Part shown: positions 1-27,370 of the stretch, piece after piece | Numbering within the stretch: position 1 is the first letter of the stretch | Layout of the letters: every line of letters begins with the position of its first letter | From: a virus | IMG/VR virus record: IMGVR_UViG_3300042564_002819 | Location: 62,001 to 126,000 of that record | Length of the DNA stretch: 64,000 nucleotides | Reading direction: 5' to 3' (one strand) | Notes under the pieces: model-generated | Databases searched by the model: none | Told to the model about the DNA's origin: nothing | The model's input: the letters and a program-made list of their open reading frames with translations, nothing else | Translations under genes and position numbers: made by a program

Positions 1-559
1 CTTTACTTAGGCTAATTGAAAACGTCTTGATAGCAGAATGTGACAAATCTATATCAATGTTTTTACACTGTCCTAGCCATGCTGCATCTATGTGAACGTC
101 GATAGAGTTTTTGTAACAAAAGTCTAAGAGTCGATCTATGTCGGGTATATTCCCTGCTGTTTTAACAGAAGGATAAGAAATAACTAGAACTGATCCTGAC
201 GGTATTGCAGAATAATGTGTTACTTTTAAAATTTTTGGATTTAATCTCCAATGATATGCATACTCGCCTTCGAATATTACTAACTTATTACTGTATCTGT
301 AATGCAGTTCGTCTATTTGCTGTGAAACACCTAATATAGCATCAGTAAATTTAAAAGACTCTAAATTTTTAATATTATTTAATTTAGAATTTTTAATCCA
401 AGCTGTAACTTTTTCTATAAAGTATTTTGTATATTGATTGCTATCTGTTGGATATTCTTTCATATCTAGAGAATCTCGAAACCCAATAATTTTACCAACT
501 AACATAGGAGGAATTCTAGATGTTAAAAACTTTTCTACACTTAAGTTATTATAATCCAT
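1..559 (-). CDS. PLP-dependent aminotransferase-like protein, C-terminus cut by window edge
   Basis: An open frame starts at an ATG (559) and runs off the left edge, giving 186 residues. Near the edge it reads VHIDAAWLG, then about 20 residues later TFSISLSK. This is the pattern of fold-type I PLP enzymes: an Asp that contacts the pyridine nitrogen, and a Lys in an S-x-S-K context that forms the Schiff base. The N-terminal part has no motif I can name. The first 11 bases overlap the end of the upstream radical SAM gene, so it is probably translationally coupled to it. The subgroup (class I/II aminotransferase, class V, decarboxylase) cannot be decided without the missing C-terminal half. The PLP fold is well supported; the substrate is unknown. 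Confidence 0.65.
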   Translation of the reverse strand, partial: MDYNNLSVEKFLTSRIPPMLVGKIIGFRDSLDMKEYPTDSNQYTKYFIEKVTAWIKNSKLNNIKNLESFKFTDAILGVSQQIDELHYRYSNKLVIFEGEYAYHWRLNPKILKVTHYSAIPSGSVLVISYPSVKTAGNIPDIDRLLDFCYKNSIDVHIDAAWLGQCKNIDIDLSHSAIKTFSISLSK

Positions 560-1916
560 ATACATCGCCTTTTAACAATGCCCATGTTTTTTCGCATACA
601 TCTTTTAGTTTTTCTTTTCTTGACTTATCTAATGTATTTGTATAATACCAAAACTTTTCTAAATCTTTAGAATGATCTTCTGAGTTCATAAATTTTATAT
701 ATTGATCTAATATCTTACAAAAATACTTAAAGTTTTCCGATTTTTCTTTTTCGGTTAAATCTAGCAACGAAATCTCTGCTTTAGCTTCAATCTTTTTTTG
801 TTCAAAGTAATTTTCTATCCACTGCTTACTTTCTTTTGGAAATATTTGAATATTTAAGAACTTTGGATTATGTAAAGGATGCGGACTTATTACCGGCTTG
901 TGTTGCACCTCAACATTAATTCTTTTAAATTTTTGTTTGATTTTCCAAAGCATCATATCAGGCAAGTGAACTAGATTATATGCTTGTATAGTAGCAGCCC
1001 ACCATATTTTAAAATCTCCTTCAGCAGCGTCTAATTTTCGCATATTTTCTTCTATCTTGTGCCATTTGCTAGGATTTCTTATATAATCGTTTATTGGTCC
1101 TACAGCATCAACACTCATTCCAATTTGTATACGTTCAAAATGCTTCCAAATATTCCAAGCACGTTCTGGAATATTAGTAATATTTGTATTGTATTCTATC
1201 ACAATAGATTTAGATCTTCCGGCATCTATGCACTTTTGTAAAAACTCGTAATGTTGGTCTATTAATAAAGGTTCCCCTCCAACGATGTATAATCGTTCTA
1301 TTGTAGGAATTTCTTGTTCCATTTCCTTCCAAAAAGCAGGCTTTTCGTACCAAGAATAGATATCAACTTCGGGTTTATGCTTTCCGTTTGCTGTTTTTAT
1401 TAATTTTACAGTTTGCCCGCTATCTTTATATTGATTTCCCCAAAGCAATACGTTGTCATCGTACCACTGACTGCTATCTGTAGGCCCACACATTCTACAT
1501 TTTAAATTGCAAAGATTTCCAAAACGAAGATCCATGTATTTTATAGGATTTTCTTCTAAATCAATTGATCCATCTTGCTTCGTTTTTGATATGGCATCTT
1601 CTTTATTAATTACATGAGCCCATATATCTCTTTCCCAACTAGCTCTACTTTCCATTCCTGATTCTGCTTCACGTTTACATCTAATGCATGATTCGTGATA
1701 TTCATTATTTAACATAGCTAATCTAACTTCTTTCATTAGATTGCTGTTTCTAAATCCGTGTATAGTTTCAGTTGATAGGTTGTAATTCGATCCTGTTTCT
1801 GTTTTTACTAATCCCTGATTAATACTAACATTTGCATTACAACATATTCTTACATCGCCGTTATTTCTTACATTTAAACTCATCCACGGCAGTGGACAAA
1901 ATGCGTTATTTTCCAT
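549..1916 (-). CDS. Twitch-domain radical SAM protein (group A)
   Basis: This 455-residue protein has the layout of N-terminal twitch-domain radical SAM proteins. It opens with FCPLPWMSLNV and an RICCNA cysteine pair (C25, C26), then C77-x2-C80, which could bind an auxiliary Fe-S cluster. The radical SAM core follows, with CNLKCRMC (C136, C140, C143) for the SAM-binding 4Fe-4S cluster and GGEP at 213-216 for SAM. The twitch element lies before the core instead of after it. It is a paralogue of the gene at 3627-5042. An AGGA sits 7 bases before the ATG. The gene lies 14 bases downstream of another radical SAM gene. The family assignment is firm; the substrate (peptide, sugar or other) is unknown. 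Confidence 0.85.
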   Translation of the reverse strand: MENNAFCPLPWMSLNVRNNGDVRICCNANVSINQGLVKTETGSNYNLSTETIHGFRNSNLMKEVRLAMLNNEYHESCIRCKREAESGMESRASWERDIWAHVINKEDAISKTKQDGSIDLEENPIKYMDLRFGNLCNLKCRMCGPTDSSQWYDDNVLLWGNQYKDSGQTVKLIKTANGKHKPEVDIYSWYEKPAFWKEMEQEIPTIERLYIVGGEPLLIDQHYEFLQKCIDAGRSKSIVIEYNTNITNIPERAWNIWKHFERIQIGMSVDAVGPINDYIRNPSKWHKIEENMRKLDAAEGDFKIWWAATIQAYNLVHLPDMMLWKIKQKFKRINVEVQHKPVISPHPLHNPKFLNIQIFPKESKQWIENYFEQKKIEAKAEISLLDLTEKEKSENFKYFCKILDQYIKFMNSEDHSKDLEKFWYYTNTLDKSRKEKLKDVCEKTWALLKGDVYGL

Positions 1917-1930
1917 TTATAAATCCTATA

Positions 1931-2980
1931 TTAAGAAAGTTGCTTATCGTTTTTATTTTTTCCATGTCCGCTACTAAACTCAAATTTTTTGCCACAAGTT
2001 CTACCGCATGTATATATTCTTTTAAATGTATCGTCTTGATTATTCCAGGAATTGTGTAAATATGAATTAAAAAAGTCATGTTTTAGTACATCCCAACCGT
2101 GTATTCTCATATCATTAAAACTTTCCCCATAAAGATTTTTTATATGATCAAAGCTAGGTTGTTGTTTGTTTTTATGATGGAAGTAACTTGGGGCCCCAAG
2201 CCAACAACACGGCCAAAGTTTCATCGTCATATCAACAAAAACAGTTTTATCAATTTTATATTTACAGCTAATCGGTGTTGTTAAAACATAATTTTCAAAA
2301 TCTTTAATTGAATCTTTATCTTTCTTGTTATGATTAGTAGGAGTATCCTCAACAACGTTGCCTTTTTTTGTAACAGTATTTTTTTGATCTTGATCTGCAA
2401 AACGAGCAGTATATTTAACTGTGAATTTTTTAAATCCAAGACTGTTTGCTAAGTTTTGTGCTTGTTCAATTTGATGATAGTTGTGTTGAAACTCTATAAA
2501 TGCCCATTCTGCATGGCCCCCGGCCGAAATAAATGCTTCTGCATTTTTAATTATTTTATTAAAATCACTACCAACTCTGTATAATTGATTTGTGTCTTCT
2601 AATCCGTCAATACTAAAAATAATTGACAACTTTTCTGCTGACTTTTTGGCTAATTCTGCCCACCATTCTGGCTTACGCATACTTCCATTTGTTGCAATTC
2701 TTACATGCTTTACATTTTTTGTTAAGCAATATTCATGAGCTGCGTCAAAGGTAGGACTTGCAATCACATCGCCGTAATTTCCGCAATGAAAGATTGTTAC
2801 CTGATTCTCTTTGAAAGGTTGCAAAATTATCTCATAGTCTGATACAGTTAGATCAGTTATTGGCATGCTAGGATTTAATGTATTGTTAAACATCCTAGCA
2901 CATTGAGGACATGCACAATTACATCTACTTGTATGATCTATTTGTATTTTTTGAATTTCTTCTAAATTTAAATAGTTCAC
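1931..2980 (-). CDS. Radical SAM/SPASM-type protein (group B)
   Basis: The 349-residue protein begins directly with a radical SAM core. The cluster motif is CNCACPQC, with the CxxxCxxC cysteines at 20, 24 and 27. Near the C-terminus there is a Cys-rich stretch (CKYKID, then LWPCCW, then YTCGRTCGKK), as expected for a SPASM or twitch domain holding auxiliary Fe-S clusters. SPASM enzymes commonly modify peptides, though some act on small molecules. The start codon is GTG at 2980, overlapping the stop of the PP-loop gene by four bases (GTGA); no ATG lies before the cysteine motif. It is a clear paralogue of the gene at 5051-6130, sharing the N-terminal layout, the PCCW motif and the final CG pair. 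Confidence 0.83.
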   Translation of the reverse strand: MNYLNLEEIQKIQIDHTSRCNCACPQCARMFNNTLNPSMPITDLTVSDYEIILQPFKENQVTIFHCGNYGDVIASPTFDAAHEYCLTKNVKHVRIATNGSMRKPEWWAELAKKSAEKLSIIFSIDGLEDTNQLYRVGSDFNKIIKNAEAFISAGGHAEWAFIEFQHNYHQIEQAQNLANSLGFKKFTVKYTARFADQDQKNTVTKKGNVVEDTPTNHNKKDKDSIKDFENYVLTTPISCKYKIDKTVFVDMTMKLWPCCWLGAPSYFHHKNKQQPSFDHIKNLYGESFNDMRIHGWDVLKHDFFNSYLHNSWNNQDDTFKRIYTCGRTCGKKFEFSSGHGKNKNDKQLS

Positions 2981-3630
2981 AGTCTATCAAATCCCCATCG
3001 ACGTTCAGCACAAAACCAGCAATTACCACAATGTTTTTCAAAGTTGTCAGTGTATTTCTCACAACTTCTAGTCATAGGAAATAATGTATCAAAGACATTA
3101 AAATAACGGTACAATTCTGCTACATCTCTTTTATTAAAGTTAATCAATGGATGACATGCCGTTCCTTCGTAGATGTTTTTTAGTCTTTCTCTGTCTGGTG
3201 GATCAGTCCATCCTCGCCAATATACACTTCTCGGTATTGCGTTTTTTGGAGGATTTTGTGTTATTCCAGCAAAATGAAATTGAATTTTATTGTTTTTATA
3301 TAAGTTATTAGTTAATAGTTGTTGTGTTTTAATATAATTTTCATCTTCTGGCAAAGGGCTATATGCTGTCTCGTGTTCCAAAAAAATATCGCCAAACTCT
3401 TTTTTATAAAACTCGACTATTTTTTTAGCAAACTGAATTTGAAAAGCTTTGCCTTCTTGATCAACAGTTATTGGAACAATTTTTAAGTCAGGCCTTTCTT
3501 CAACTACATATTTAGATAGTATGTATCCTGTAATTGCACTATCTGCACCCCCTGAGATTTTTAATCCCACAGATGAAACATTATTAAAAACTACAATATT
3601 TAGATTGTGTTTGCTATGAGGAATTATCAT
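2977..3630 (-). CDS. QueC-like PP-loop ATPase
   Basis: This 217-residue protein carries the PP-loop SGGADSA (26-32), the pyrophosphate-binding motif of the adenine nucleotide alpha-hydrolase family, whose members adenylate a substrate. The C-terminus has four cysteines (C190, C201, C204, C207) in CGNCWFC, followed by AERR. This matches the zinc-binding end of QueC, and the length is also QueC-like. The loop sequence differs from the usual QueC SGGxDS by carrying Ala, which still fits the family. It sits between two pairs of radical SAM genes and overlaps both neighbours by four bases, so it probably works with them. preQ0 synthesis is possible, but no QueD, QueE or FolE is visible in the window. 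Activation of a carboxylate or nucleobase is the safer reading. Confidence 0.7.
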   Translation of the reverse strand: MIIPHSKHNLNIVVFNNVSSVGLKISGGADSAITGYILSKYVVEERPDLKIVPITVDQEGKAFQIQFAKKIVEFYKKEFGDIFLEHETAYSPLPEDENYIKTQQLLTNNLYKNNKIQFHFAGITQNPPKNAIPRSVYWRGWTDPPDRERLKNIYEGTACHPLINFNKRDVAELYRYFNVFDTLFPMTRSCEKYTDNFEKHCGNCWFCAERRWGFDRL

Positions 3631-5042
3631 TGTAAAATCTCGGTAAAGATAGGAAAAACTTTTAAAAATTTATCTTCCCATTGTCGTTGTTTGTTAATAA
3701 GAGATATGTATTCTTTTGTTTCTGGTAATCTTTCCGACCAATCTTCACTGTTCATAAAATTTATAATACCTTTGAATCTTTTAATTCCGTAAGGATTTTC
3801 TAAAAACTGTTCTTTAGAAATGTTGTTTTCTTTTACTCCAGTAAACTGTTGCCAATTGTCTTCTATCCATGGATAAAAATCGTTTTCGTATTTGTCTGTA
3901 ATTTGTTTTTTAACATTTTTCGGCAATACTTTTACATTTAATTGAGGAGGCCAGTACGCAAAGTGCATGTTTATGCCGCCGGCTCCTAGTGGCCAAGAAT
4001 TTATCTTTTTAAAACCTTGTTGAGTTTTCCATTTTACAAACTCCGGTATATAAGCAATATTAAGAGCCATTATAGTAGTTGCCGTTGTTACTTCAACTTG
4101 AGGTGCAGTATTGTCTAGTTTCCAAAACACTTCTTCCTGGTGTTGCCACTGACTAGGATATCGAATATAATCATTGTGTTCTCCGTGTGCATCTATACTA
4201 TAATGAAATCTAACACGTTTAAACTCTGCCCATAGATCAAATAAATCACTACGCCATTCAACTGCATTGCTATTGTAACGTAACTCTATATTCTTTGCAT
4301 ACCCACGTCTAATGCATTCTTCTAATAGATCATAATGTTCATCTATAATAAGACTTTCGCCTCCGGCAAAGTATAGTTGATACATATGAGGAATTTGTTC
4401 AAACAAGTCTTGCCAGAATTTTGGATTATTTTTATGCCAATTATAGCTAGCACCGTGTACTCTGCCTTTATTTTCCCACTGACTAGTACCTTTTAATCTT
4501 TCATTTGTTATTTGAGGGTACAAAGAATTCCATTCTTTTACCCAGCCGCTCGAATCGTGAGGACTACACATTACACAAGCAAGCTGACACTTTGTACCCA
4601 TACGCAAGTCAATATACCGTATTTTCGGGGGTATAGAACCGTCAGCGGCAGTTTCATTAACTAATTCTTGTAGGTCAAAGCGGCTTGCCCAATAATCGGT
4701 TTCCCAATTTCTTTTACTAAGATGTCCAGCTTCTTCTTCTTTGTAACACTTTAGACAACTAGCAGGCTTTTCGCCACGAAGCATCATCTTACGAACATTA
4801 CGCATATATCCGCTGTTCCATGCTTCTTCTAGGCTAGTATGATTAAAATTAGCAGGAACGCCCGAGTCGTTCTTTACGACTCCAACTTCGCCACCACCGA
4901 TTTTGTTACTGCTGTCTGGATCTTGAACACTGCTGGCGTTACTTGTGCAACATGTTCGCATTTTTCCATCCGGTCTACTTGATAAGTGTAGCCACGGCAA
5001 TGCACAAAAGGTAGGCGAAATATGATTGTATTTTTCTGACAT
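3627..5042 (-). CDS. Twitch-domain radical SAM protein (group A)
   Basis: This 471-residue paralogue of the gene at 549-1916 has the same order of parts. An N-terminal twitch element reads TFCALPWLHL with C31-C32, then C96-x2-C99. The core motif CQLACVMC (C152, C156, C159) is followed by DSSGW, and GGES near 227-230 stands where most relatives have GGEP. The C-terminal 150 residues resemble its paralogue but show no further cysteine cluster. The start ATG at 5042 lies 8 bases after the stop of the 5051-6130 gene. The conserved partner order (a group B gene upstream of each group A gene) suggests each A and B protein act as a pair. The substrate is unknown. Confidence 0.84.
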   Translation of the reverse strand: MSEKYNHISPTFCALPWLHLSSRPDGKMRTCCTSNASSVQDPDSSNKIGGGEVGVVKNDSGVPANFNHTSLEEAWNSGYMRNVRKMMLRGEKPASCLKCYKEEEAGHLSKRNWETDYWASRFDLQELVNETAADGSIPPKIRYIDLRMGTKCQLACVMCSPHDSSGWVKEWNSLYPQITNERLKGTSQWENKGRVHGASYNWHKNNPKFWQDLFEQIPHMYQLYFAGGESLIIDEHYDLLEECIRRGYAKNIELRYNSNAVEWRSDLFDLWAEFKRVRFHYSIDAHGEHNDYIRYPSQWQHQEEVFWKLDNTAPQVEVTTATTIMALNIAYIPEFVKWKTQQGFKKINSWPLGAGGINMHFAYWPPQLNVKVLPKNVKKQITDKYENDFYPWIEDNWQQFTGVKENNISKEQFLENPYGIKRFKGIINFMNSEDWSERLPETKEYISLINKQRQWEDKFLKVFPIFTEILQ

Positions 5043-5050
5043 GTTAATAC

Positions 5051-6130
5051 TTATTTAAACTGTTCTGCAAAAGGATCAAACTCGATACCACATTTCATAG
5101 CACAAACTTTTAATTTTCCATTTTCGTAACTGTTTTCATGCCACGACGCTTCTATAAGATCAAAAATTTCTGTAGAAAATACACGTTCTAAACCATGTAT
5201 CTTAGCATTTATTGCATCTTTGCCGCCGGCAAAATTAATAAATTGCCATATTTGTTCTTGTTTAGGATCTTTTTGCCACCATTTGTACATTCGACCAGCA
5301 GTCCAACAACAAGGCATTGCTATCCCTTCTGCTGTAATAAACAAACTGCCTTCGTCTTTTACCTTGCATCTGATAGGAGTTTGTTGATAGTAAGCATCCA
5401 TGCTTCCGTATTTTATTTCTAACAATGTTTGCTTCTTTAATGCATTGTTTACATATTTGTCATCGGGCTTTTTAAGTTCGGTTGTTTGATTACCTTTTCG
5501 ATCAATTGCTTGGTGTGATTCTTTTTTCTTGCTATCTTGCGTAATAAATCTACCAGTTTTTTTAGCAACAAACTTTTCAAAGCCTAATTCCTTTGACAAC
5601 GCTTCTGCGTCTTCGACCTGATGTTGGTTATGTTCAAATATTAAAAAATCCCAACGTGCTCTGCCGCCGGCTGCAATAAATGCTCGCATACTACGTTCGA
5701 CTATATTCCAGTTAACACCTTGACGATACAAATGATTTGTATCACCGAGTCCGTCTACACTAAAAATAACAGTACCTGCTCTTCCAAGTATAGTTGCAAG
5801 TTCTTGCCACCATTCGGGATCACGGGCGCCAGCATTTGTATTCATGCTTAACCACATCTTAGGATTATTTTGTCTAAAATAGCGAAATATTTCTAGTGTG
5901 TCTCGAGCAACAATTGGATCTCCTAAATTACCGCACATATACATGGTGTTTAGCTGTGCTATAAATTCCGGTGTGAATATTTTTTTACAATCATCGAGTG
6001 TTAGTTCACTTAAATCTATATGAGGATTTAGTGCTCCGCCGTTTTGATTACGGTCACACATAGGGCAACTAGCTTGACAGTTTTGTGTTACTTCTAAGTG
6101 TATGGTTTTTATATCTTTATATTCATACAT
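5051..6130 (-). CDS. Radical SAM/SPASM-type protein (group B)
   Basis: The 359-residue protein starts with the radical SAM core: IHLEVTQNCQASCPMCDRN, with cysteines at 18, 22 and 25. The C-terminal region has a cysteine in IRCKV, a PCCW pair and a final CAMKCG, consistent with auxiliary Fe-S binding in a SPASM or twitch domain. It is a paralogue of the gene at 1931-2980. The ATG overlaps the end of the small upstream gene by eight bases. Together with the following group A gene it repeats the A/B arrangement seen further downstream, which suggests an ancestral two-gene unit was duplicated. Family certain, reaction unknown. Confidence 0.83.
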   Translation of the reverse strand: MYEYKDIKTIHLEVTQNCQASCPMCDRNQNGGALNPHIDLSELTLDDCKKIFTPEFIAQLNTMYMCGNLGDPIVARDTLEIFRYFRQNNPKMWLSMNTNAGARDPEWWQELATILGRAGTVIFSVDGLGDTNHLYRQGVNWNIVERSMRAFIAAGGRARWDFLIFEHNQHQVEDAEALSKELGFEKFVAKKTGRFITQDSKKKESHQAIDRKGNQTTELKKPDDKYVNNALKKQTLLEIKYGSMDAYYQQTPIRCKVKDEGSLFITAEGIAMPCCWTAGRMYKWWQKDPKQEQIWQFINFAGGKDAINAKIHGLERVFSTEIFDLIEASWHENSYENGKLKVCAMKCGIEFDPFAEQFK

Positions 6131-6350
6131 CGTATATTAACTCTACATCCTTTCCTGGACCTATTTTACTAGGAAGATCACCGTATTGCTCTATGTACCA
6201 TTTAATTACAGCTATATACCAATTTTGACTATTATGATGTGCCTGTTTATTAAATTGAAAAATATTATTATTAGTTGCTTGTATTGTGCTTAACGCACGG
6301 GCACTTTCTTTTTGTAAATCTCTTAAACTTAACTTTGTTAAATCATTCAT
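6123..6350 (-). CDS. Small protein of unknown function
   Basis: This is a 75-residue reading frame, mostly predicted helical and polar, with an N-terminal region rich in Asn and Gln and a C-terminal part containing WYIAVIKWYIEQYGDLP. No signal peptide, membrane segment or metal motif is visible. I count it as a real gene because it fills the space exactly between two genes on the same strand: its ATG at 6350 overlaps the upstream sulfotransferase stop by four bases, and its stop overlaps the next start by eight. It could be an accessory or substrate-like protein for the neighbouring radical SAM enzymes, but nothing in the sequence shows that. Confidence 0.6.
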   Translation of the reverse strand: MNDLTKLSLRDLQKESARALSTIQATNNNIFQFNKQAHHNSQNWYIAVIKWYIEQYGDLPSKIGPGKDVELIYDV

Positions 6351-7030
6351 TCTAATTCTAACATCCCATTAATGTTTTTAATGCCTTCGCTTGAAAAATT
6401 AAACATTCTTTCATTAAAAATTTCTTGTAGTTTGTCTTTATTTAAAACGTTTATTATTTTATATGGAGTTTTTCCAGGTTCGAATGTAGGACGTGGCGGA
6501 GAATCTTCAAATGGTAAATTTAATTTTTTATAATCAGTATAACTATCAAAAGAAAGATCTTCAAAATAAATTATGTCGTTATGAATGTTATTTTTTTTTA
6601 ATTCAGCAAACTTTGTCCAAAGATCAATTTTTCTTTCTAAAACTTCTGTAAATTGATACTCGTCTATACTAATAGTTGTTTTTTCGTAAGGAAAATCGTT
6701 AAAATTTTGTAATTTATTAGCTACAACATGACTAAATGTATTTTGAAACAGATCTTTTCTTAAAAGAAAGATTTTATACCAAATGTTGTTATTTAAAAAA
6801 AATTTAATAGTCTTAGGTCTCTTAATCTCATATATTTGATTTAAGTGAGTTTTTAATATAACATTTTTATGTAACAAACAGGTTTTAATTATACCTTTTA
6901 CATACGTGTCTGGCTGTTCAGTCATAAAGGGTTCTGTAAGAAAAAACGTATTCCTATAAAAATAACGATAGATGGTTCTAGCAAAATAACTACTTCCTGT
7001 TCTTGTACTAGATATTATAAGTATTTTCAT
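6347..7030 (-). CDS. Sulfotransferase-like P-loop protein
   Basis: The 227-residue protein begins MKILIISSTRTGSSYFA, the 5'-phosphosulfate-binding loop of PAPS-dependent sulfotransferases (S/T-R-T-G-S-S, residues 8-14). A downstream acidic stretch, IIYFEDLSF, is in the place of the conserved strand seen in this family. The size is in the range of small bacterial and phage members. By family knowledge it would move a sulfuryl group from PAPS to a hydroxyl or amine, likely on a sugar or lipid. It overlaps both neighbours by one to four bases, so it belongs to the same operon as the radical SAM and glycosyltransferase-like genes. The acceptor is unknown, and a non-sulfating P-loop role is possible. 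Confidence 0.65.
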   Translation of the reverse strand: MKILIISSTRTGSSYFARTIYRYFYRNTFFLTEPFMTEQPDTYVKGIIKTCLLHKNVILKTHLNQIYEIKRPKTIKFFLNNNIWYKIFLLRKDLFQNTFSHVVANKLQNFNDFPYEKTTISIDEYQFTEVLERKIDLWTKFAELKKNNIHNDIIYFEDLSFDSYTDYKKLNLPFEDSPPRPTFEPGKTPYKIINVLNKDKLQEIFNERMFNFSSEGIKNINGMLELE

Positions 7031-7875
7031 TATTTTATTCCAATTTTCATAAATCTTGTATACTTAGGTAAAACTAATTCACCCTTAAAAAGTGTATTAG
7101 TCATAGGTGCTTTTTTATCAAACTCGTCTAAATCTGTTGAACAATTAACATGTTCTGCAACTTCAAAATAATTATTTCCTTGTAAAATTACTAATTTTCC
7201 TGTTGGAATTTTTTCATACCAATCTTTAAAATTTTCTATATGCTCGCAACTAGTATTAATAATTGTATTAGGGATATCAGTTATAGGATAACTCATCCTG
7301 TTATTTGCATTGCTCCAATATTGCCAAGTATGTTCTCTGTAATCAATGTCTTGTATATTTTGTATTAATGACTTAAATCTCCACTGATCTGTAAACCAAG
7401 GTTTGTTAAAAACTTCTGCAATATCTACTGTGGTAGGATCAATATCAAAACTTCTAATTTTGTCAATTTTAATTCCGCTTTCAAACAACATTACTGCAAG
7501 TGTACCATACCACCCTGCACATAAAAAAACTGTACCTAACTCAACATCTAGTTTTTTTAATTCATTAACCAACCATAGTTTACTTTGTAATTGACCTCTA
7601 CTAAAACAATCGTTGTCAATCTTTAAATTGTTAACATAAAAGTTTTTGAATGCTGAGACAAATTGAGTATCAACGTAATTGTCTAATAATGGCCAAAGTT
7701 TCCATGCATTGTCTTCTAGAATTAGTTTTCTTAAATCTTCTTTGTTTTGATCATTAACTATGCGAAAAATACTGTTTAAATCTCGGTCAATATAAGCTCT
7801 ACGCAGGTCTGATAATTTATTATTATCAGAATAGAGTAATTCAAATCTATCTAATATCTCAAATATTTCTAGCAT
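7030..7875 (-). CDS. Class I SAM-dependent methyltransferase-like protein
   Basis: With the ATG at 7875 the protein has 281 residues; an in-frame TTG lies one codon earlier but is less likely. An AAGGA precedes the ATG by eight bases. A Rossmann-like core is seen in the middle: VFLCAGWYGTLAVML (about 116-130) takes the place of motif I, followed by IRSFDIDP with acidic residues that would hold the SAM ribose. Later NTSCEHIENF and LVILQGNNYF fit the post-core strands. The N-terminal 100 residues are helical and unassigned. The start overlaps the upstream repeat protein by 17 bases. The methyl acceptor is unknown; N-, O- and C-methylation are all open. Confidence 0.6.
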   Translation of the reverse strand: MLEIFEILDRFELLYSDNNKLSDLRRAYIDRDLNSIFRIVNDQNKEDLRKLILEDNAWKLWPLLDNYVDTQFVSAFKNFYVNNLKIDNDCFSRGQLQSKLWLVNELKKLDVELGTVFLCAGWYGTLAVMLFESGIKIDKIRSFDIDPTTVDIAEVFNKPWFTDQWRFKSLIQNIQDIDYREHTWQYWSNANNRMSYPITDIPNTIINTSCEHIENFKDWYEKIPTGKLVILQGNNYFEVAEHVNCSTDLDEFDKKAPMTNTLFKGELVLPKYTRFMKIGIK

Positions 7876-10432: not shown

Positions 10433-10435
10433 AAA

Positions 10436-19738: not shown

Positions 19739-21653
19739 TTACTTTTGTTATCCACGATTTTCCAAAATTTCGCCGTCTAGCAAAAAATATTTGTTCACAA
19801 AACTTTTGTAGACTAATATCTTTATCCTCAGGAAAATCAAATTTGTATCTTACTTTATTTTTTAAAATTTCGTTAGATTGTATGTATCCTATAAAGTCAA
19901 AGTCAAAATTTAAAATCTTTGGATAGTGTGTTGTTTGAGAATAGTCAATAATATAATTTCTTTGCAATTGTATTAATTGATCCGAGAGTTCTTTATCTAA
20001 GTCGAAATTTTCTTTTAAAAATTTATCTATTAAATCAAATACATGTTGACTTTTATTTTCGCTATGAATATTAATTATGGTACTGTGAATCAAATTCCAA
20101 CCATGTATTTCAATTCCTTGAATAGGAACATGATTTATTAAACCGTAATCTGACCAATTTTTATAATGTTTTCTAATTCTATTAATTTCAGAATTAAGCC
20201 AAGGATCTTGTTTTATATAATCAAAAAGCTTTTCATAAAAATCTTCGTACAAAACATTTGAATGCTTATAAAGAAATCTGCTAATATAATTAGTTATACC
20301 GTTGATGTGAAAGGTATTCATAAACCAACTAAAAACTTGAGCATCTAGCATTGTTTCTATTGGTAAATCTTTAGTAGAAATTACAACTTCTACTCCTTCT
20401 TTTAATTCATTTTCATTATATGTTCCAACAAGATAATCGTAAACAATTCTACCTTTTAAATTGTACTCTTCTCTTTGTACCAGATTCATTTCAGCATTTT
20501 CAAGAAGCTGTGCTTGATAGATTGTTATTCCTGTGTGATTTCCTGCTCTATATAGTTTATAAAAGTTGTCTTTCCAAGATTTTAGTGTTTCGCCAGGTAG
20601 GCCTAGAATTAATTCTGTGTACAGAGGAATGTTGCTTTCTTCGCAAAGTTCAAAAACTTCTTCAATTTTGTTTGTATCGAGATTTTTTCTTTTTATGATT
20701 TCAAGAACATTTTCATCCATAGTTTGTACACTTAGATTTAACCCTATCTTAGCACCGCCATCATAGATTAATTTTTTAACAATATCAACTATTTCTTTTT
20801 TTTGATTTTTTGCCCAGCTTATTGTATAAGCTTTTGGATTATTATAGGTTTTTTGAACTTCTATTAATTTGTCGGCTATTAACGAATCTCTGTCTGGAAA
20901 TATTCCAAAATTGGCATCGGTTATACTAACAAAATCGCATCGATTTTCGCCGATCCATTCGAGCTCCTTGTAAACCCTTTCAAGGTCAAACTTTTTAACT
21001 TTGTTGTATGTTAAACTACCCCAGTCACAGAATGTACAAGCATACGGACAGCCTCTATTAGTTTCTAAAGTTGCGTTCCATGTTATCTCAGGATACTTTT
21101 TCATTAAGTTGTCAAATATCCCAATTAAATAAGGACTAGGAATTTCGTCTAATTCATTTATTCTTAAACTCGGCCCTGTGTCAATTGTTTTATTATCAAC
21201 ATTAACTAAGAGTCCTGGTATTTTTAATATTTCTTCTTTGCTGCTAGCTTCTAACAACTTCTTAAAAGATATTTCGCCTTCTTGTTTAAAACAAACGTCA
21301 ATATAAGGATAAATTTCAAAAAAATTAGGATTTTCAATTGACGGTTCAGGCCCGCCGAACAATATCATTATATCAGGATTTATTTTTTTTAGTTCTCTTG
21401 CTAAAACATTATTATAGCTTTTATTCCATATATAAGTGCTAAATCCTACTATAGAAGAATCTTTTAACTGTTCAACTGCTTCTTCTATAGGGTCTCTTCT
21501 CCAAATAAAGTCACCCAAGTAATAATTATTTTTTATACTTTCAAATTGTTGTGCATATGCCCATACAACCGCAGGACTGTATGGAAGATAATATGCATTA
21601 AATTCCTTAGGACCTTGCTGAAAGTTCGGGCTTACAAAACTTACTTTTTTCAT
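19728..21653 (-). CDS. B12-binding-domain radical SAM protein
   Basis: The 641-residue protein has an N-terminal Rossmann-like domain of the B12-binding type (1-140: VSFVSPNFQQGP, IVGFSTYIWN, ILFGGPEPS, GEISFKKLL). A radical SAM core follows, with RGCPYACTFCDWGS (C202, C206, C209). The usual DxHxxG cobalamin-coordinating motif is absent; YIWNKS occupies that place, so cobalamin, if bound, would lack the lower His ligand. The C-terminal 200 residues are helical and unassigned. Such proteins perform C-methylations, rearrangements or oxidations on antibiotics, lipids and sugars. Its ATG overlaps the upstream TEKT gene by four bases and its end overlaps the next start by 11, so it is embedded in the glycosylation-like operon. 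Confidence 0.8.
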   Translation of the reverse strand: MKKVSFVSPNFQQGPKEFNAYYLPYSPAVVWAYAQQFESIKNNYYLGDFIWRRDPIEEAVEQLKDSSIVGFSTYIWNKSYNNVLARELKKINPDIMILFGGPEPSIENPNFFEIYPYIDVCFKQEGEISFKKLLEASSKEEILKIPGLLVNVDNKTIDTGPSLRINELDEIPSPYLIGIFDNLMKKYPEITWNATLETNRGCPYACTFCDWGSLTYNKVKKFDLERVYKELEWIGENRCDFVSITDANFGIFPDRDSLIADKLIEVQKTYNNPKAYTISWAKNQKKEIVDIVKKLIYDGGAKIGLNLSVQTMDENVLEIIKRKNLDTNKIEEVFELCEESNIPLYTELILGLPGETLKSWKDNFYKLYRAGNHTGITIYQAQLLENAEMNLVQREEYNLKGRIVYDYLVGTYNENELKEGVEVVISTKDLPIETMLDAQVFSWFMNTFHINGITNYISRFLYKHSNVLYEDFYEKLFDYIKQDPWLNSEINRIRKHYKNWSDYGLINHVPIQGIEIHGWNLIHSTIINIHSENKSQHVFDLIDKFLKENFDLDKELSDQLIQLQRNYIIDYSQTTHYPKILNFDFDFIGYIQSNEILKNKVRYKFDFPEDKDISLQKFCEQIFFARRRNFGKSWITKVNDR

Positions 21654-22912
21654 CGTTGTTTATATTTTCCTGAAAATATTTCTTCTACAGTATTAAACAA
21701 TCTTTTGTGAGATTCATATACATAATCATGTTGCATATAATTTAGTTGATTTTGTTTTACCATTTTTAATGATTCTCTAATAAAAGACTCTTTGTGTTTT
21801 CTACTTGTATTTACCCACTTGGTCAACGACTCATGTGCTGCATAAAATCTATCAACTGGACTTTGAATATCATCATACGATTGATCTAACCCAGGAAAGT
21901 CTGTTTGATAGCCCATACTTCTTAATTCTTTTAAAATATTGTATTGTCCTAGAATTATAAACGGATGACCGGCAACAATCGGTTTAAATGTTTTTTCAGT
22001 AATAAACATTCCCGGTTGTTGAAATGCTGTTTCTGTTACAAAACTTAATAAACTATTTTTATAAATAGAATGATTAAAAATTGTTTCGTTGTTAAAGTCT
22101 GGATTTTCTACTGTAAAATCTTTGTCAACAATTAACGGTAAGTTTTTTGTTAACGTATTTTTATATTGATCATCATCTATATTTAACACTGTACTCGGAG
22201 GTACTTGAGTACTATTAGGATCATTACGATAATTACCGCTTACTAATCCATGTTGTGCAAGATTTTTTGTAATCAAATAATACAAATGATCAATTCTATG
22301 ATTTCTAGCTGTTCTATTTAAACTATTAAAGTCTTTTGAGTCCGATGACTTTAAAGCATCAAGTATCAATGGTTGCTTTGGAATGCGATCTTGAAAATAG
22401 AAAAATCCTGTTAAAAAGTATACATGTGCAACACTTTGTTTCTGTCTATTATTAATACACCATTGCTCGTATTGACTTGAGAACCATGAATTATTGTCTA
22501 CTAATATCACGCTGTATCTAGGAAGATGTAAATTTTTTATTGCCTCATGAAGTTCAAAAAATCCATCAACTAATCCGTTAATTGTTTCTCTAATTAAAGG
22601 AAACCCTTCTGACTGATTGTCAATGACTATAAGAACTTTTCCTTTTCTAGCTGCCTGAATAACGTCTAAAGGTATTTCATATAATACATGTCTAGGAGGA
22701 CCGTAGCGTTCTTTTCCAGACCAAGTTTCAGCATAACATCTTACACTAACAAGATATATACCCGGATTATCGTATTCATTTGTTTCTGCAATTTCAAAAC
22801 CTGCTTGCTTAAAAGAATGAAATGCGTTAGTATTGTCAAACGTAAGAGGGTGCGGTCCATCTGATAATTCATGCAAGTTGCTATGATTTAGGTCGTCGAC
22901 ATAGAATCTCAT
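21650..22912 (-). CDS. TEKT-motif family protein, glycosyltransferase-like candidate
   Basis: The 420-residue protein has an N-terminal region with KVLIVIDNQSEGFPLI (about 90-105), followed by the family blocks: LNRTARNHRIDHLYYLI (first block), then FVTETAF, FITEKTFKPIVAGHPFII, LRSMGYQTDFPG and LDQSYDD (second block). HPFIILG after the TEKT motif is the best match in this window to the donor-binding P-x-x-x-G pattern of fucosyltransferase-like enzymes. It is coupled to the epimerase gene by a one-base TAATG overlap and to the B12 radical SAM gene by ATGA. The epimerase neighbour makes a GDP-sugar donor plausible. No experimental family name is known to me. Confidence 0.5.
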   Translation of the reverse strand: MRFYVDDLNHSNLHELSDGPHPLTFDNTNAFHSFKQAGFEIAETNEYDNPGIYLVSVRCYAETWSGKERYGPPRHVLYEIPLDVIQAARKGKVLIVIDNQSEGFPLIRETINGLVDGFFELHEAIKNLHLPRYSVILVDNNSWFSSQYEQWCINNRQKQSVAHVYFLTGFFYFQDRIPKQPLILDALKSSDSKDFNSLNRTARNHRIDHLYYLITKNLAQHGLVSGNYRNDPNSTQVPPSTVLNIDDDQYKNTLTKNLPLIVDKDFTVENPDFNNETIFNHSIYKNSLLSFVTETAFQQPGMFITEKTFKPIVAGHPFIILGQYNILKELRSMGYQTDFPGLDQSYDDIQSPVDRFYAAHESLTKWVNTSRKHKESFIRESLKMVKQNQLNYMQHDYVYESHKRLFNTVEEIFSGKYKQR

Positions 22913-23874
22913 TATTTACTTTTTTCTATTTGTTCAAGTATCCACTTGTAAGTTTTTAACAATCCGTTTTCTAAATTATCCGGAGGAGACCAATTTAGTT
23001 GTTCTTTGATTAACTGATTATGACTTGTTCTTCCTGCTACTCCTATAGGACCGTCAACGTTTTTTATTTGTATATTTTTGTTTGTTAGTCTTCCTACTAG
23101 CATTGCTAACTCGTTAATGGAAATCATTCTTTCGCTACCTAAGTTTAAAGGAAGACTGTAATCTCCGTCTACAATTTTTTTAATTCCAACAATACATTCA
23201 TCTATATACAAATAACTACGAGTTTGTGTTCCTGGGCCCCATACTTCGATCTCTCCTGTTTCTGTTTCAGCAACTTTTCTACATATTGCAGCAGGAGACT
23301 TTTCTTTGCCACCAGTCCAAGAACTTTCTGGACCAAAGACATTATGAAATCTTGCTATTCGAACACGTATTCCATAGTTTTTAGCAAATGACAAAAACAA
23401 ACGCTCACTAAACAACTTTTCCCAGCCGTATTCGGAATCAGGATTTGCAGGATATGCACTGTCTTCACTTAAAAGAGGATTGGACGGATCTGCTTGATTA
23501 TGTTCAGGATACATGCAGGCACTGCTAGAATAAAAAATTCTGTTAACTCCCTTTTCTACCATTTCTCTAAGTATATTAAGATTAATTATAGAACTATTAT
23601 ACATAATATTTGCATCGTTGTCGCCTGTAAATATGTATCCAGCACCACCCATATCGGCTGCAAGTTGATAAATTTCATATAAATCGCTTGTAACTATCTT
23701 ACTTACATGTTCTTGATTTCTTAAATCAGCTATATGAAATTCGTCGGCAGTTGTTTGAGAAAATTCAGGATATCTTAAATCTACTCCTATTACATAAAAA
23801 CCTTGACTTTTTAAATCATTGACTAAGTGTACACCGATAAACCCGCCTGCACCGCAGACTAAAACTTTTTTCAT
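22912..23874 (-). CDS. GDP-mannose 3,5-epimerase-like short-chain dehydrogenase
   Basis: The 320-residue extended SDR protein has KVLVCGAGGFIGVHLV at the N-terminus, YSSSACMYPEHNQ (Ser and Cys near the active site), YGWEKL (the Tyr-x-x-x-Lys pair), RFHNVFGP, WTGGKEKSPAAICRKV and QTRSYLYIDE. The SSACMYPE and GGKEKSPAA stretches are diagnostic of GDP-mannose 3',5'-epimerase, known from plants and some bacteria, rather than of UDP-glucose 4-epimerase or GDP-fucose synthase. The enzyme converts GDP-D-mannose to GDP-L-galactose (and GDP-L-gulose) using bound NAD+. It lies between two TEKT-family genes that could use the product. The subfamily call rests on recognised motifs, with a related NDP-sugar epimerase as the alternative. 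Confidence 0.82.
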   Translation of the reverse strand: MKKVLVCGAGGFIGVHLVNDLKSQGFYVIGVDLRYPEFSQTTADEFHIADLRNQEHVSKIVTSDLYEIYQLAADMGGAGYIFTGDNDANIMYNSSIINLNILREMVEKGVNRIFYSSSACMYPEHNQADPSNPLLSEDSAYPANPDSEYGWEKLFSERLFLSFAKNYGIRVRIARFHNVFGPESSWTGGKEKSPAAICRKVAETETGEIEVWGPGTQTRSYLYIDECIVGIKKIVDGDYSLPLNLGSERMISINELAMLVGRLTNKNIQIKNVDGPIGVAGRTSHNQLIKEQLNWSPPDNLENGLLKTYKWILEQIEKSK

Positions 23875-25169
23875 ATATTTGCACCGTACTTTTCTACAAA
23901 GTTATTTAATTCAATAGGTTTTAAATTTGCAAGATTTTTGAAATTATATTCTCTTATTTCTTTCGTTCTTGCATAAAATGTGTGTAATTCCATAGGACTC
24001 CATTTTGAAATAGTTCTACAGAGCGAAATTATCTTTTTCATTCTTTTTTTAGGGTCTGATTCATTATCGTAGCCTTCATCCCAGAAATCCGAAAACGTTT
24101 GAAATCCTAATTTTCTTAAAGATTCTAAAGTTTTTGCTGGACCAACAATAATAAAAGGTTGTTTAAAAATTATAGGTTTAATAGTTTTTTCAGTCATATG
24201 TATGATGTTATTCTCAAAGTTAGTTTCAGAAACTATACTTATATAAGTTTTATCATACCAACTTATTGTGTCCTCAAGTCGATCTTCCATAGGAAATCTT
24301 GAAAAGTCGTGAGTATCTAAAACATAGGGCAACGAATCGTACACTTGGTATAACTCGTCAATCTTTAATCTTATATCGTATTCTGCTACTGCCCGTTGTG
24401 CGTCGTGAATCCAATGTTCCACTGGAACATCTCTTGAAAAACTCATATGTGTACGTTTTAGCAAATCATGCTCAAAAAACTTTAATAATAAAATGTATCT
24501 ATGCAATCTGTGACGTCTATTGAAATTTAGAAATAATTTTTCTTTTTTAACATTTGCATCTGTTCTCTTTGAGAATACAGGATCTTTGCATACCACACGT
24601 TGCTGCAAGACATATAATCCTGCATATTCACAGTTTATTCTTTCTTCGATACAATATTTATTGCAATATTTTTCATAAATTTCTTGTGAATTTGCACAAT
24701 TATTTAAGTATATTACTTTATTCAAAGGTATTTGATTTTCTTTAAAATAATCATGTATACTTTTAAAAGTTGCATTATCAACAAAGCTTTCATATTTGTT
24801 AGAAAGTAAAATAAAACCATTCCTATTTCTTACAGCATCTAAAACAGTTTGGCTTACAGGAGTTGTTTGAAAAACACCCAAGTGACTGTTTAATGTAATT
24901 TCTGTAAAAAACTTTCTAGGAGAAAGTAATATTTCATACATAAATGGAGTGTCTCCAAGACTTTCAACGTCGTACGAAGGAACAAATCTACATTTAACAT
25001 AATCTTTTATTAACATCGAAATCGGATCTTGCTCATCTGTTACAGAATTGCTGTCCCATCTTAAATACGGCAATCGTTTTATTAAATCATACAGGTCCGG
25101 TACCTTGTAGTTATTCAACGGACCTTCTGGTCCTATCCAGTCATATACAAAAACCAGTTCTTTATTCAT
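23871..25169 (-). CDS. TEKT-motif family protein, glycosyltransferase-like candidate
   Basis: I choose the ATG at 25169 (432 residues), six bases after an AGGA; a TTG at 25187 and an ATG at 25175 lie just upstream and are less well placed. The family blocks are present: FLNFNRRHRLHRYILLLKF and, later, IVSETNFENN, HMTEKTIKPIIFKQPFII, VGPAKTLESLRKLGFQTF and DFWDEGYDNE. The first block has the clearest R-R-x-R-L-H-R sequence in the family. The N-terminal part begins with a short beta strand, LVFVYDWIGPEGPL. The start overlaps the upstream SGNH gene by eight bases and the end overlaps the epimerase start by four. The sugar-transfer role is inferred. Confidence 0.5.
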   Translation of the reverse strand: MNKELVFVYDWIGPEGPLNNYKVPDLYDLIKRLPYLRWDSNSVTDEQDPISMLIKDYVKCRFVPSYDVESLGDTPFMYEILLSPRKFFTEITLNSHLGVFQTTPVSQTVLDAVRNRNGFILLSNKYESFVDNATFKSIHDYFKENQIPLNKVIYLNNCANSQEIYEKYCNKYCIEERINCEYAGLYVLQQRVVCKDPVFSKRTDANVKKEKLFLNFNRRHRLHRYILLLKFFEHDLLKRTHMSFSRDVPVEHWIHDAQRAVAEYDIRLKIDELYQVYDSLPYVLDTHDFSRFPMEDRLEDTISWYDKTYISIVSETNFENNIIHMTEKTIKPIIFKQPFIIVGPAKTLESLRKLGFQTFSDFWDEGYDNESDPKKRMKKIISLCRTISKWSPMELHTFYARTKEIREYNFKNLANLKPIELNNFVEKYGANI

Positions 25170-26004
25170 AGTCATTCCTACAGTCAAGTGCTTTTTTAAA
25201 ATTTAATAATTTTTGATTTGTTGAAAGTCTTTTTTCTAACATAATTAAATTAATCTGTGTTTGAAAGTCAAAATTTGTCATTACTTCGTCGACATATTCT
25301 TCCATTTTTACAATATTTAAATCTAATATTTTTAAAGATACTATTTCTTTAATATACATTAGTGTGTAATTTGTTAATGGGTGATCGTCGTGATAGTGTT
25401 GCATTTTTTTATCATTGTCTACATAGTAACAATTTTTTATTGGCATTTTTTTACTACGAAAAAAAACCGTCATTGTTTTACTATCAATAAAATGATTTTT
25501 ATATAATGAGAGCTTTTTAATTAACGAATTATAAAAATAAGAAAGAGTTGTATCTATAAACAATTTTGAAATTTCGTTAGAATAAACCATACTATCAGGA
25601 GACATAAACATAAAATACCATTTACAACCTGTATTTTCTAATAAATTTATTAAATTAACCATATACGTTAGTGTTTTTATTATTGAAGTTTTATCTGAAA
25701 TTAAAAAATCTAATTTAGCTTTTGTTAACTGTTCAGATGTTAAACTTCCTAAACACACCCAATCTCCATTTTCATTGATGTAATCAGTTCTGTTTGGTTC
25801 TGTCCACTGTATTATTACCGTATCAGTATTTTTTACTTTATTACTGAGTAATACGTTGGTTGCTTTGTGAAATATATAAAAATTTCCACATCCTGGATTT
25901 CCATAATTTTTTGTCACATTGTAACTTTGTGCCACAATGTCTGGCCACATCGGCCACGAATATTGAGCAAAACTGCATCCAAACGTATATAGGTTACCCT
26001 GCAT
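25162..26004 (-). CDS. SGNH-hydrolase-like protein
   Basis: The 280-residue protein opens with LYTFGCSFAQYSW, placing the nucleophile Ser11 in a G-x-S block, and follows with NPGCGNFYIF, the G-x-N block. A C-terminal HYHDDHPLTNYTLMYI contains the candidate catalytic His; the acidic residues lie one and two before it rather than three, so block V is atypical. VIIQWTEPNRTDYI fits the central strand. It shares only the family layout with the gene at 12005. It lies between a radical SAM gene (11-base overlap) and a TEKT-family gene (8-base overlap). Deacylation or transfer of an acyl group on the block's product is possible, but the substrate is unknown. Confidence 0.55.
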   Translation of the reverse strand: MQGNLYTFGCSFAQYSWPMWPDIVAQSYNVTKNYGNPGCGNFYIFHKATNVLLSNKVKNTDTVIIQWTEPNRTDYINENGDWVCLGSLTSEQLTKAKLDFLISDKTSIIKTLTYMVNLINLLENTGCKWYFMFMSPDSMVYSNEISKLFIDTTLSYFYNSLIKKLSLYKNHFIDSKTMTVFFRSKKMPIKNCYYVDNDKKMQHYHDDHPLTNYTLMYIKEIVSLKILDLNIVKMEEYVDEVMTNFDFQTQINLIMLEKRLSTNQKLLNFKKALDCRNDYE

Positions 26005-27370
26005 TGGTAGTAGTATCCTTACATAGATTATAAAAATTTTCCATTTCAGGAAATGTTTCTAAAAAGTTTACATTTCTTCTTCTATCGTACTCTTTAAACC
26101 AGTTATAAAAGTCTTTTCTACCTTCGACAATTTTATTTTCTTCGTATGCTACCGATGCAAAATAGTTTCTAACACGACGAAATCTTTCATATTCTAAATC
26201 AGAGAATTTAGTAGTATCTTTTTCGTCTGTATTGTCTTCTATAAATTTTAATATTTTATCAAAATAAGGAAGAAATTCTTCCTTAGGAAGAATATGCATA
26301 TCATATTGCAACGGTTCTTTTAAATACGGAGTATCAAACCTAATTCTTCTTCTCGACGGATGATGATATTGTTTACGCCATTCTAGTATTTTTTCTAAAA
26401 ACAAAGTAAAACTAGTAACACTTAAAATATTAAAGGTACACATGAAAGTAATATCTGCACCAGTAACGTCTAAGTAGTTTTTCATATTTGATTCCCACAA
26501 ATCGACATCTAATCCGGTTCTCATATACTCAGCACGTTTTCCAAAAGAATCTATACTTGAATAAAGTTTAAACTTTTTTATGGAGTTTGTTTCTAATAGC
26601 TCGTTAACACTGGTTGATAACTTTGTTACTAATCTCGGACTTATACCCAAGTTACTATTTAAATTAAGTTCAAGGTGAGGACGGGGATCTTTTTTCAATC
26701 TCTCAAATAAATTCCATGTGCTTTTATGCATCAACGGTTCGCCACCTGTAATTCTTAAAATATTTAGAGTTTTTGAAAGCTCAGGCCACCATTCCCACCA
26801 TGCTTTAATGTAAGGATTGTTATCTTCTTCCATTGGCTTAAACCAGTCAATGTCTAGTGCATGGTTGTTAACACCTTCGACTTTTCCAAACTTTTTAATT
26901 TCAGCATGATAAGAACTACTTGCCATTGGGTGGCAATATCCACATTTAAAATTGCATTCATTTGAAAATGCAACTTCAACATATTCAGGATTAACGTTAA
27001 AATCCCACGGCTTTGTTAGAATTTCTTCAACTCTCTCAGGCTTATAAATTGATTGGTTTCTAATCATTCTATCTGAGATGTGATCGTTACCAAGAGATTC
27101 TACATTCCAACAGTATTTACAGCCTTCAGGTTTTTCACCAATAAGCATCTTTGCACGTTCTTTTTTCTTTGTTAGAGTGTTGTGCAAAGCACTAGGATTA
27201 TTTTTTATTTCCGACAAAGAAATAGCGTGAGGAGCAGGATGATAACAACTGTGGGTATCACCTGTGTGCAAGTATATTGTTGTATGATGCCATTTAGCTA
27301 AACAAAACGTTGGACTTATTTTGTCCATTTCTGTATTTTGTTGCTTGATTAAGTCTGTTTCTGAAGTCAT
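25994..27370 (-). CDS. Twitch-domain radical SAM protein (group C)
   Basis: This 458-residue protein is a paralogue of the one at 10436. The N-terminal twitch element has TFCLAKWHHTTIYLHTGDTH, SCYHPAPH, NPSALHNT and GCKYCWNVES (C84, C87). The core motif CNFKCGYC (C139, C143, C146) is followed by HPMASSSYH, and GGEP lies at 209-212. In this group the auxiliary cysteines are only those of the N-terminal element, with no SPASM at the end. The ATG overlaps the upstream glycosyltransferase-like gene by four bases. The partner of the 10436 paralogue is likewise a VDGD-type glycosyltransferase-like gene, in the reverse order, which suggests the two families work together. Confidence 0.85.
   Translation of the reverse strand: MTSETDLIKQQNTEMDKISPTFCLAKWHHTTIYLHTGDTHSCYHPAPHAISLSEIKNNPSALHNTLTKKKERAKMLIGEKPEGCKYCWNVESLGNDHISDRMIRNQSIYKPERVEEILTKPWDFNVNPEYVEVAFSNECNFKCGYCHPMASSSYHAEIKKFGKVEGVNNHALDIDWFKPMEEDNNPYIKAWWEWWPELSKTLNILRITGGEPLMHKSTWNLFERLKKDPRPHLELNLNSNLGISPRLVTKLSTSVNELLETNSIKKFKLYSSIDSFGKRAEYMRTGLDVDLWESNMKNYLDVTGADITFMCTFNILSVTSFTLFLEKILEWRKQYHHPSRRRIRFDTPYLKEPLQYDMHILPKEEFLPYFDKILKFIEDNTDEKDTTKFSDLEYERFRRVRNYFASVAYEENKIVEGRKDFYNWFKEYDRRRNVNFLETFPEMENFYNLCKDTTTNAG

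Follow-up and report, generated by a model that had tools for sequence, protein, structure and literature searches.

A radical SAM gene island in a T4-like jumbo phage: conserved core, interchangeable cassettes and a candidate role in glycan modification

Several phages are known to carry large numbers of genes for radical S-adenosylmethionine (SAM) enzymes. The T4-like Campylobacter phages CP220 and CPt10 (Firehammervirus) encode 11 and 12 radical SAM proteins, respectively, and each possesses an interchangeable cluster of five radical SAM genes together with an amidinotransferase (2010, PMC2853527). The marine T4-like genome TARA_ERS488813_N000010 contains 12 radical SAM genes, which were read there as part of Fe-S cluster metabolism (PMC5332604). 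In pelagimyophages and cyanomyophages the host recognition cluster includes radical SAM cassettes among its genes (PMC7029224). Here we describe a radical SAM island in the virus record IMGVR_UViG_3300042564_002819 (330,024 bases), starting from the 64,000-nt stretch at positions 62,001–126,000 of the record, called the window in the following, which begins at 62 kb. A preliminary description of the window had implied that its density of radical SAM genes is unusual. The reports above provide precedents, so that radical SAM-dense phage clusters are already known as a kind. The present island is organized around a core comprising the radical SAM proteins W67 and N65, the small protein s68, a methyltransferase-like protein, two proteins with a GT-A-like glycosyltransferase (GT) fold and, at the far end, the radical SAM protein O47796.

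The island resembles that of CP220, another T4-like phage, in combining radical SAM genes with an amidinotransferase and two nearby genes annotated with nucleotide-sugar-transferase folds. The CP220 amidinotransferase is 32% identical to the one at 12850 in the window over 366 columns, and the CP220 radical SAM proteins match the profile of the W type, to which W67 belongs, although they are only about 22–28% identical to it. Within the 41-kb CP220 stretch searched we found no orthologues for N65, for s68, for the GT-A core or for the B12-dependent radical SAM proteins. CP220 and CPt10 have fewer radical SAM genes, and their cluster is not ordered around the present core. The TARA genome likewise belongs to a marine T4-like phage with many radical SAM genes, whose arrangement the passage on it does not give; in the present phage no phage-encoded A-type Fe-S carrier (PF01521) was found. 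The host recognition cluster is a parallel in layout, being a hypervariable island beside tail-fibre genes of marine T4-like phages with glycosyltransferases and radical SAM cassettes. Tail-fibre PHROG matches, a baseplate wedge protein 37% identical to that of PA5oct and variable cassettes were all found here, whereas PMC7029224 describes no conserved radical SAM core. In the stretch searched, Pelagibacter phage Mosig lacks orthologues of N65, s68, O47796 and the GT-A-like core protein G89; three of its genes carry the annotation MoaA-like.

Extent and composition of the radical SAM island

The source, a marine T4-like jumbo phage of 330 kb, is recognised as a phage by baseplate, tail-fibre and endolysin PHROG matches and by a baseplate wedge protein sharing 36–37% identity with its counterparts in Atu_ph07, PA5oct and other jumbo phages. 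For gene starts the longest open reading frame (ORF) was taken, and functions were assigned by homology and fold. The island genes of the window and the tail-fibre-like genes at 32967..38334 are located on the minus strand. Seven ORFs carry a CxxxCxxC motif, starting at 549, 1931, 3627, 5051, 10436, 19728 and 25994, just as the preliminary description had listed them. Chance motifs were rejected, the expectation for the window proteins being 0.012, and misassembly was rejected because the block is present at 100% identity in two further metagenome contigs. The confinement of the genes to one block at 549–27370 understated its size: gene calling revealed 17 CxxxCxxC genes at contig positions 46,744–89,370 (42.6 kb), 10 of them in the 15 kb left of the window and 7 inside it. 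A PF04055 search of the whole record gave 16 matches, all within 47–89 kb. The window edge thus cuts the island, which continues 15 kb leftward. Over its first 31 kb the window has 30/30 genes on one strand; neighbouring genes overlap at 21 of 28 junctions, only two gaps exceed 30 nt (42 and 60 nt), and the gaps of the block leave no room for a small ORF. The tight overlap and the amidinotransferase proposed earlier are confirmed; no support was found for the sulfotransferase label given to the accessory protein at 6347..7030, which matches no Pfam family.

The N-terminal-twitch class of radical SAM proteins comprises 549, 3627, 10436 and 25994 as well as three left-side genes above the cut-off of NF033640 and a fourth below it. 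The curated whole-model cut-off of this family is 170 bits, and the window proteins score 368 (549..1916), 414 (3627..5042), 311 (10436..11962) and 313 bits (25994..27370); invariant N-terminal cysteines and the CxxxCxxC motif are seen in our alignment A4. NF033640 is named by domain only, and no characterised member was found. The short W type includes 1931 and 5051 plus two more genes, the B12 type 19728 plus two more, and two other radical SAM genes complete the set. Of the six twitch/SPASM proteins claimed earlier, four therefore pass NF033640; 1931 and 5051 are SPASM/twitch-like, yet remain below every curated cut-off. Their assignment as tungsten cofactor maturases (TIGR04317) was rejected at 50 and 44 bits against a cut-off of 380. 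The three proposed pairs proved to be true paralogues with BLASTP identities of 34% (549/3627), 33% (1931/5051) and 36% (10436/25994).

The protein encoded at 549..1916 (N62; SPASM at 7–81 followed by Radical_SAM) is a recurrent accessory beside the core. The W-type protein at 1931..2980 has C-terminal twitch-like cysteines according to profile scores and alignment, is shared with Bdellovibrionota at 54–56% identity and belongs to a second gene module, module 2, described below. A single window protein, at 19728..21653, combines a B12-binding and a radical SAM domain in one chain (PF02310 and PF04055), in agreement with the earlier description. Its closest solved relatives in phmmer searches are TokK (E 9e-81) and CysS (E 8e-56), which points to a B12-dependent C-methyltransferase of the TokK/CysS/KedN5-like class; membership in the KedN5 family proper (NF033712) was rejected at 242 bits against a cut-off of 700.

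A conserved core with interchangeable cassettes

N65 (3627..5042) shows invariant cysteines at C13, C31, C32, C96 and C99 and at C152, C156 and C159 in alignment A4. W67 (5051..6130) carries C18/C22/C25 and the twitch-like cysteines C255, C274, C343 and C347, as derived from profiles and alignment. It is preceded by s68 (6123..6350), a protein of 75 aa without cysteine. MT69 (7030..7878) is a putative Rossmann methyltransferase-like protein by motif, with no Pfam and no PDB match. The large GT-A-like protein (7859..10432) is 35% identical over 239 aa to G89 (27367..28347). About five tandem repeats of approximately 105 aa precede its C-terminal GT-A-like domain. Since none of the GT-A-, GT-B- and methyltransferase-like alignments matched a PDB entry in profile searches, fold prediction was needed. 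The AlphaFold2 (AF2) model of G89 reached a predicted local distance difference test (pLDDT) score of 84.9 and its top Foldseek PDB matches are mostly GT-A enzymes; D81, D83 and N84 of its DGDN motif (81–84) are invariant. Gene fusions link these proteins. An Oligoflexia protein (L220:13365-15272) consists of a W-type radical SAM protein (4–385, E 2e-105) fused to the G89 GT-A domain (398–630, E 4e-45), and in 12 phage loci a G89-X227-MT69 fusion unites both GT-A-like domains with the methyltransferase-like domain.

In IMG/VR, relatives of 3627 were detected in 221 stretches, of 19728 in 165 and of O47796, encoded left of the window, in 253. Core conservation was counted over 78 loci with a 3627 relative, leaving out two contigs identical to the source phage; many of these loci are clipped by contig ends, on which accessory counts depend. 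Median identity is 80% for 3627 (78/78 loci), 70% for 5051 (77), 74% for s68 (59), 54% for MT69 (64/78) and 59% for the large GT-A-like protein (61/78). W67 lies ahead of N65 on one strand in 77/77 loci, s68 lies ahead of W67 in all 59 loci having it, and O47796 follows downstream of N65 in 10/10 loci with a close N65 within reach. Between W67 and N65 0–6 genes are inserted, between s68 and W67 0–5. The CxxxCxxC motif is kept in 760/760 full-length homologues of all radical SAM classes (first 160 loci) and in 573/573 from 84 further loci, the two sets having some contigs in common, so that catalytic decay was rejected. Ratios of nonsynonymous to synonymous substitution (dN/dS) of the window radical SAM genes against their best orthologues range between 0.05 and 0.14, with dS near saturation and one of the seven not computable.

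Around this core the accessory genes turn over strongly between related loci. When grouped at 35% identity, the accessory radical SAM proteins fall into 66 clusters; loci contain a median of 7.5 and a maximum of 13 radical SAM genes within at most about 21 kb, and orthologues of N62 occur in 31 of the 78. A query with the B12-type protein of module 2 gave only four viral loci; its close relatives are thus rare in phages. In about half of the loci with a 19728-type protein (51–54% identity group, L067-L104) this B12-type protein is the only radical SAM protein found within reach, some of these loci also containing a DegT gene; they are a simpler cousin of the island.

The strong turnover could suggest a passenger collection, i.e. 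unrelated metabolic insertions without joint function. Among the explanations considered we rate this one lowest: core order is fixed in 77/77 loci, selection is purifying, the motif is universally kept, fusions occur, and both modules recur on bacterial chromosomes. The preliminary description had named unrelated insertions lacking a conserved neighbourhood and loss of catalytic cysteines in most relatives as results that would speak against it; since core order, motif and low dN/dS are preserved, neither was found. Its proposal of a dedicated pathway stands insofar as fixed order, retained motif, dN/dS and the radical SAM–GT-A fusion mark a conserved biosynthetic system. The system is, however, a conserved core with interchangeable cassettes rather than a single fixed pathway.

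Sugar-type enzymes and the proposed pathway

Within the island the amidinotransferase at 12850..13890 is nearest to StrB1, the inosamine-phosphate amidinotransferase (phmmer to 1bwd, E 2.6e-101 over 4–343). The homology is full-length and the catalytic Asp, His and Cys (D178, H226 and C331) are in register with StrB1; an aminocyclitol is a candidate substrate. The neighbouring gene (13880..14608; PF01041, 77 bits) encodes a short DegT/StrS-family sugar aminotransferase whose solved relatives are sugar and scyllo-inositol transaminases. It and its relatives measure only about 240 aa, two thirds of the usual length. A GT-B-like glycosyltransferase is predicted at 23871..25187 (AF2 pLDDT 85.3, Foldseek matches mostly GT-B); that at 21650..22912 belongs to alignment A3, whose model matches GT-B enzymes, and fold matches of this family include SenB, TarM and one phage glycosyltransferase. 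Two further GT-B-like family relatives, at 15268..16506 and 17675..19738, were identified by BLASTP to 23871–25187 (E 3e-9 and 6e-8). Additional genes encode a UDP-glucose/GDP-mannose dehydrogenase family member (16503..17678; PF03721/PF00984) and an NAD-dependent sugar epimerase/dehydratase (22912..23874; PF01370, 130 bits). Two paralogous GT8-like proteins (28884..30564), recognized by sequence inspection and paralogy, have no Pfam family; several loci have such genes on the upstream side of the core. Enzymes encoded additionally in sister loci are a carbamoyltransferase, a cytidylyltransferase and a UDP-sugar dehydrogenase. BtrN and AprD4, twitch, SPASM-type or related radical SAM enzymes of aminoglycoside pathways, act on sugar or aminocyclitol carbons.

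We hold with moderate confidence that the island is a modular pathway for assembling a glycan of the surface or of the virion and for editing it by radical chemistry; its substrate and its product are unproven. This reading is best supported because of the glycosyltransferase folds, the fusions, the StrB1-like, DegT and TokK-like enzymes and the precedent of BtrN and AprD4. The constant core order, the retained motif and low dN/dS, the sugar dehydrogenase and epimerase, the enzymes of the sister loci, the GT2 and flavin amine-oxidase-family genes near the bacterial trio, MetK and the similar gene set of CP220 also count in its favour. Nucleotide sugars would be supplied by the epimerase, UDP-sugar dehydrogenase and DegT aminotransferase, and would be joined into an oligosaccharide by the GT-A, GT-B and GT8-like enzymes. 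The twitch radical SAM proteins might then oxidise, epimerise or deaminate carbons of single sugars or aminocyclitols with chemistry of the BtrN/AprD4 type, while the B12-type protein would attach C-methyl groups and the amidinotransferase guanidino groups. Cassette swaps would alter the final structure, which may coat the infected host and shut out rival phages, or decorate the virion. SAM would be provided by a phage-encoded synthetase: MetK is complete, with all three Pfam domains, at L010:11860-12954 (contig 31,860–32,954) and is a plausible source for the radical SAM array. Tail-fibre-like structural genes adjoin the island at 32967..38334 (PHROG tail fibre and collar matches). The region 30969–38334 contains three paralogous fibre genes, and at 30969–32938 two paralogous proteins are encoded, the one at 30969 being Ser/Thr/Gly-rich; both sets are possible glycosylation targets.

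Several points weigh against a glycan pathway. To our knowledge no N-terminal-twitch radical SAM protein has a known substrate or product, and QueC-like PP-loop ATPases are unusual for glycan pathways. The Foldseek matches of the GT-A-like and GT-B-like models (TM-scores of 0.3–0.4, probabilities of 0.99–1.0) support the fold class only and not an activity. Among the window genes we recognised neither a flippase nor a polymerase nor a lipid-carrier enzyme, and host coat and virion are both candidate destinations of the glycan. Promoter-like signals assign the island neither to early nor to late expression: the T4 late-promoter-like TATAAATA is under-represented in the window (4 vs 14 expected), with one copy about 26 nt upstream of the structural gene 32021–32938, and a perfect sigma-70-like TTGACA-16-TATAAT (minus strand, 12008–11981; 0.18 expected per window) lies in and around the 42-nt gap ahead of gene 10436–11962. 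Finally, N65 has a single sequence relative among solved proteins, SkfB, which modifies a peptide.

This relationship, and the fact that SPASM/twitch radical SAM proteins mostly modify peptides, could indicate that the radical SAM proteins crosslink, epimerise or methylate either fibre proteins, whose genes adjoin the island, or s68, a small conserved protein constantly placed ahead of W67, as a precursor resembling those of ribosomally synthesised and post-translationally modified peptides (RiPPs). We consider peptide or protein modification unlikely. The lack of cysteine in s68 and its conservation along the whole length, leaving no variable core, do not fit a precursor; a six-frame search found s68 in no Bdellovibrionota locus with the radical SAM trio N65, W67 and O47796, and the block has no other small ORF to take its place. 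In the fusion protein the radical SAM part is joined to a GT-A domain, and enzymes of sugar type prevail in the neighbourhood. A RiPP system with s68 as precursor was accordingly weakened as a candidate, as a precursor does not accompany the radical SAM gene in every locus.

The StrB1-like, DegT/StrS and TokK/KedN5-like proteins at 12850, 13880 and 19728 have relatives in antibiotic pathways, including those of aminoglycosides and streptomycin, and together with the dedicated MetK they would also suit a product that is not a polymer but a small molecule able to diffuse, resembling an aminoglycoside or another natural product, made in the infected cell and directed against rival phages, defences or grazers. 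This seems less likely again than peptide modification. No transporter or self-resistance gene was recognised, glycosyltransferase-like genes are many, and fibre and GT8-like genes are close by in several loci. Here the proteins belong to an island of a phage that has about 16 other radical SAM genes beside them, and no complete antibiotic pathway was seen.

Modification of nucleic acid or 7-deazaguanine by QueC-like enzymes and radical SAM proteins would account for the three QueC-like PP-loop paralogues of the island, one of which is encoded at 2977..3630 (SGGADS motif and C-terminal CxxC; PF06508, 28 bits; no solved relative below E 0.1). Elsewhere in the phage, at L010:9948-11793 (contig 29,948–31,793), the gene for GTP cyclohydrolase I (FolE) comes before one for a QueE-like protein in which CxxxCxxF replaces CxxxCxxC. 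We regard this explanation as very improbable: QueD was not found in the phage record, QueC is marginal at 22.9 bits, the QueE-like protein is not encoded in the island and the partners in the core are GT-A-like. With the FolE/QueD/QueE/QueC set incomplete, 7-deazaguanine DNA modification was weakened as a candidate.

The remaining accessory genes encode a 2-oxoglutarate-Fe(II) oxygenase (14514..15254; PF13640, 56 bits) and two proteins without Pfam family that are SGNH-hydrolase-like by motif only, as seen by sequence inspection (12005..12850, with GCSWTQ, and 25162..26004). Farther right, 38969–52780 is a single ORF of 4603 aa between baseplate and fibre genes.

The bacterial counterpart and its meaning

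Scanning 84,980 prokaryote genomes, we found nearly full-length relatives of N65 at 54–60% identity in metagenome-assembled genomes of Bdellovibrionales, Bacteriovoracaceae and Oligoflexia, on contigs reaching 937 kb. N65, W67 and O47796 occur together on chromosomes of Bdellovibrionota, relatives of predatory bacteria, with GT-A-like and methyltransferase-like proteins; GT2 genes and a gene of the flavin amine-oxidase family are located nearby, and in one locus (L196) ordinary chromosomal genes lie on both flanks of the trio. A 26-kb island (L257-L258) contains the core and also module 2, which the phage has left of the window. Identities between the module-2 proteins of phage and bacterium amount to 64% for the B12-type radical SAM protein, 57% for an N-terminal-twitch protein and 42% for the QueC-like protein; over trio and module 2 they span 44–68%. 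The bacterial islands differ from that of the phage in lacking s68, in having genes on both strands and in lying among ordinary chromosomal genes. Six such bacterial genomes have 10–33 NF033640 matches each, up to about 12 in 30 kb, and none of 14 control genomes has a match above the cut-off. Four genome hits (L185, L186, L190 and L207) appear from their gene content to be phage contigs placed in bacterial bins. When the tree is rooted on the paralogue N62, the Bdellovibrionota sequences make up a basal grade within which those of the phages are nested. The trio thus likely moved from bacteria to phages, a direction that is not proven because the root relies on a long outgroup.

Further bacterial loci deserve mention. 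A Bdellovibrionota chromosome (G001:C1:745-775 kb, L254-L255) has about 12 radical SAM genes in 30 kb together with an amidinotransferase-like and a 2-oxoglutarate-oxygenase-like gene. Next to bacterial radical SAM islands there are recurrent hydrophobic proteins, apparently of the membrane, that match no Pfam family (L257:4580-5563, L258:4404-5285 and L259:3914-5464). Three Elusimicrobia proteins on one contig (L250:403-11188) have long N-terminal extensions before an N-terminal-twitch radical SAM protein, with TPR arrays in the two proteins checked.

In the literature searched we found neither the conserved core nor its spread in uncultivated phages, nor the radical SAM–glycosyltransferase fusion, the link to StrB1 and DegT or the counterpart in Bdellovibrionota; they appear undescribed. 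Close relatives of 3627, 6123, 5051, O47796, 27367 and 19728 were absent from 50,697 deposited phage records; with the core present in hundreds of IMG/VR contigs, this is a common phage trait almost invisible to culture. A broader proposal is possible, if doubtful: a new class of biosynthesis, that of radical-edited glycans, in which a fixed engine of GT-A proteins and three radical SAM proteins, of Bdellovibrionota origin and captured by marine phages, has its scaffold rewritten carbon by carbon by at least 66 radical SAM clusters. If true, each phage would have its own surface chemistry, a combinatorial code in the arms race. The island would provide tailoring enzymes of the radical SAM type at an exceptional natural density; they probably act on sugars, for which few such enzymes have been characterised. 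The minimal bacterial version, three radical SAM proteins with GT-A-like proteins, makes the substrate of the N-terminal-twitch proteins a directly testable question.

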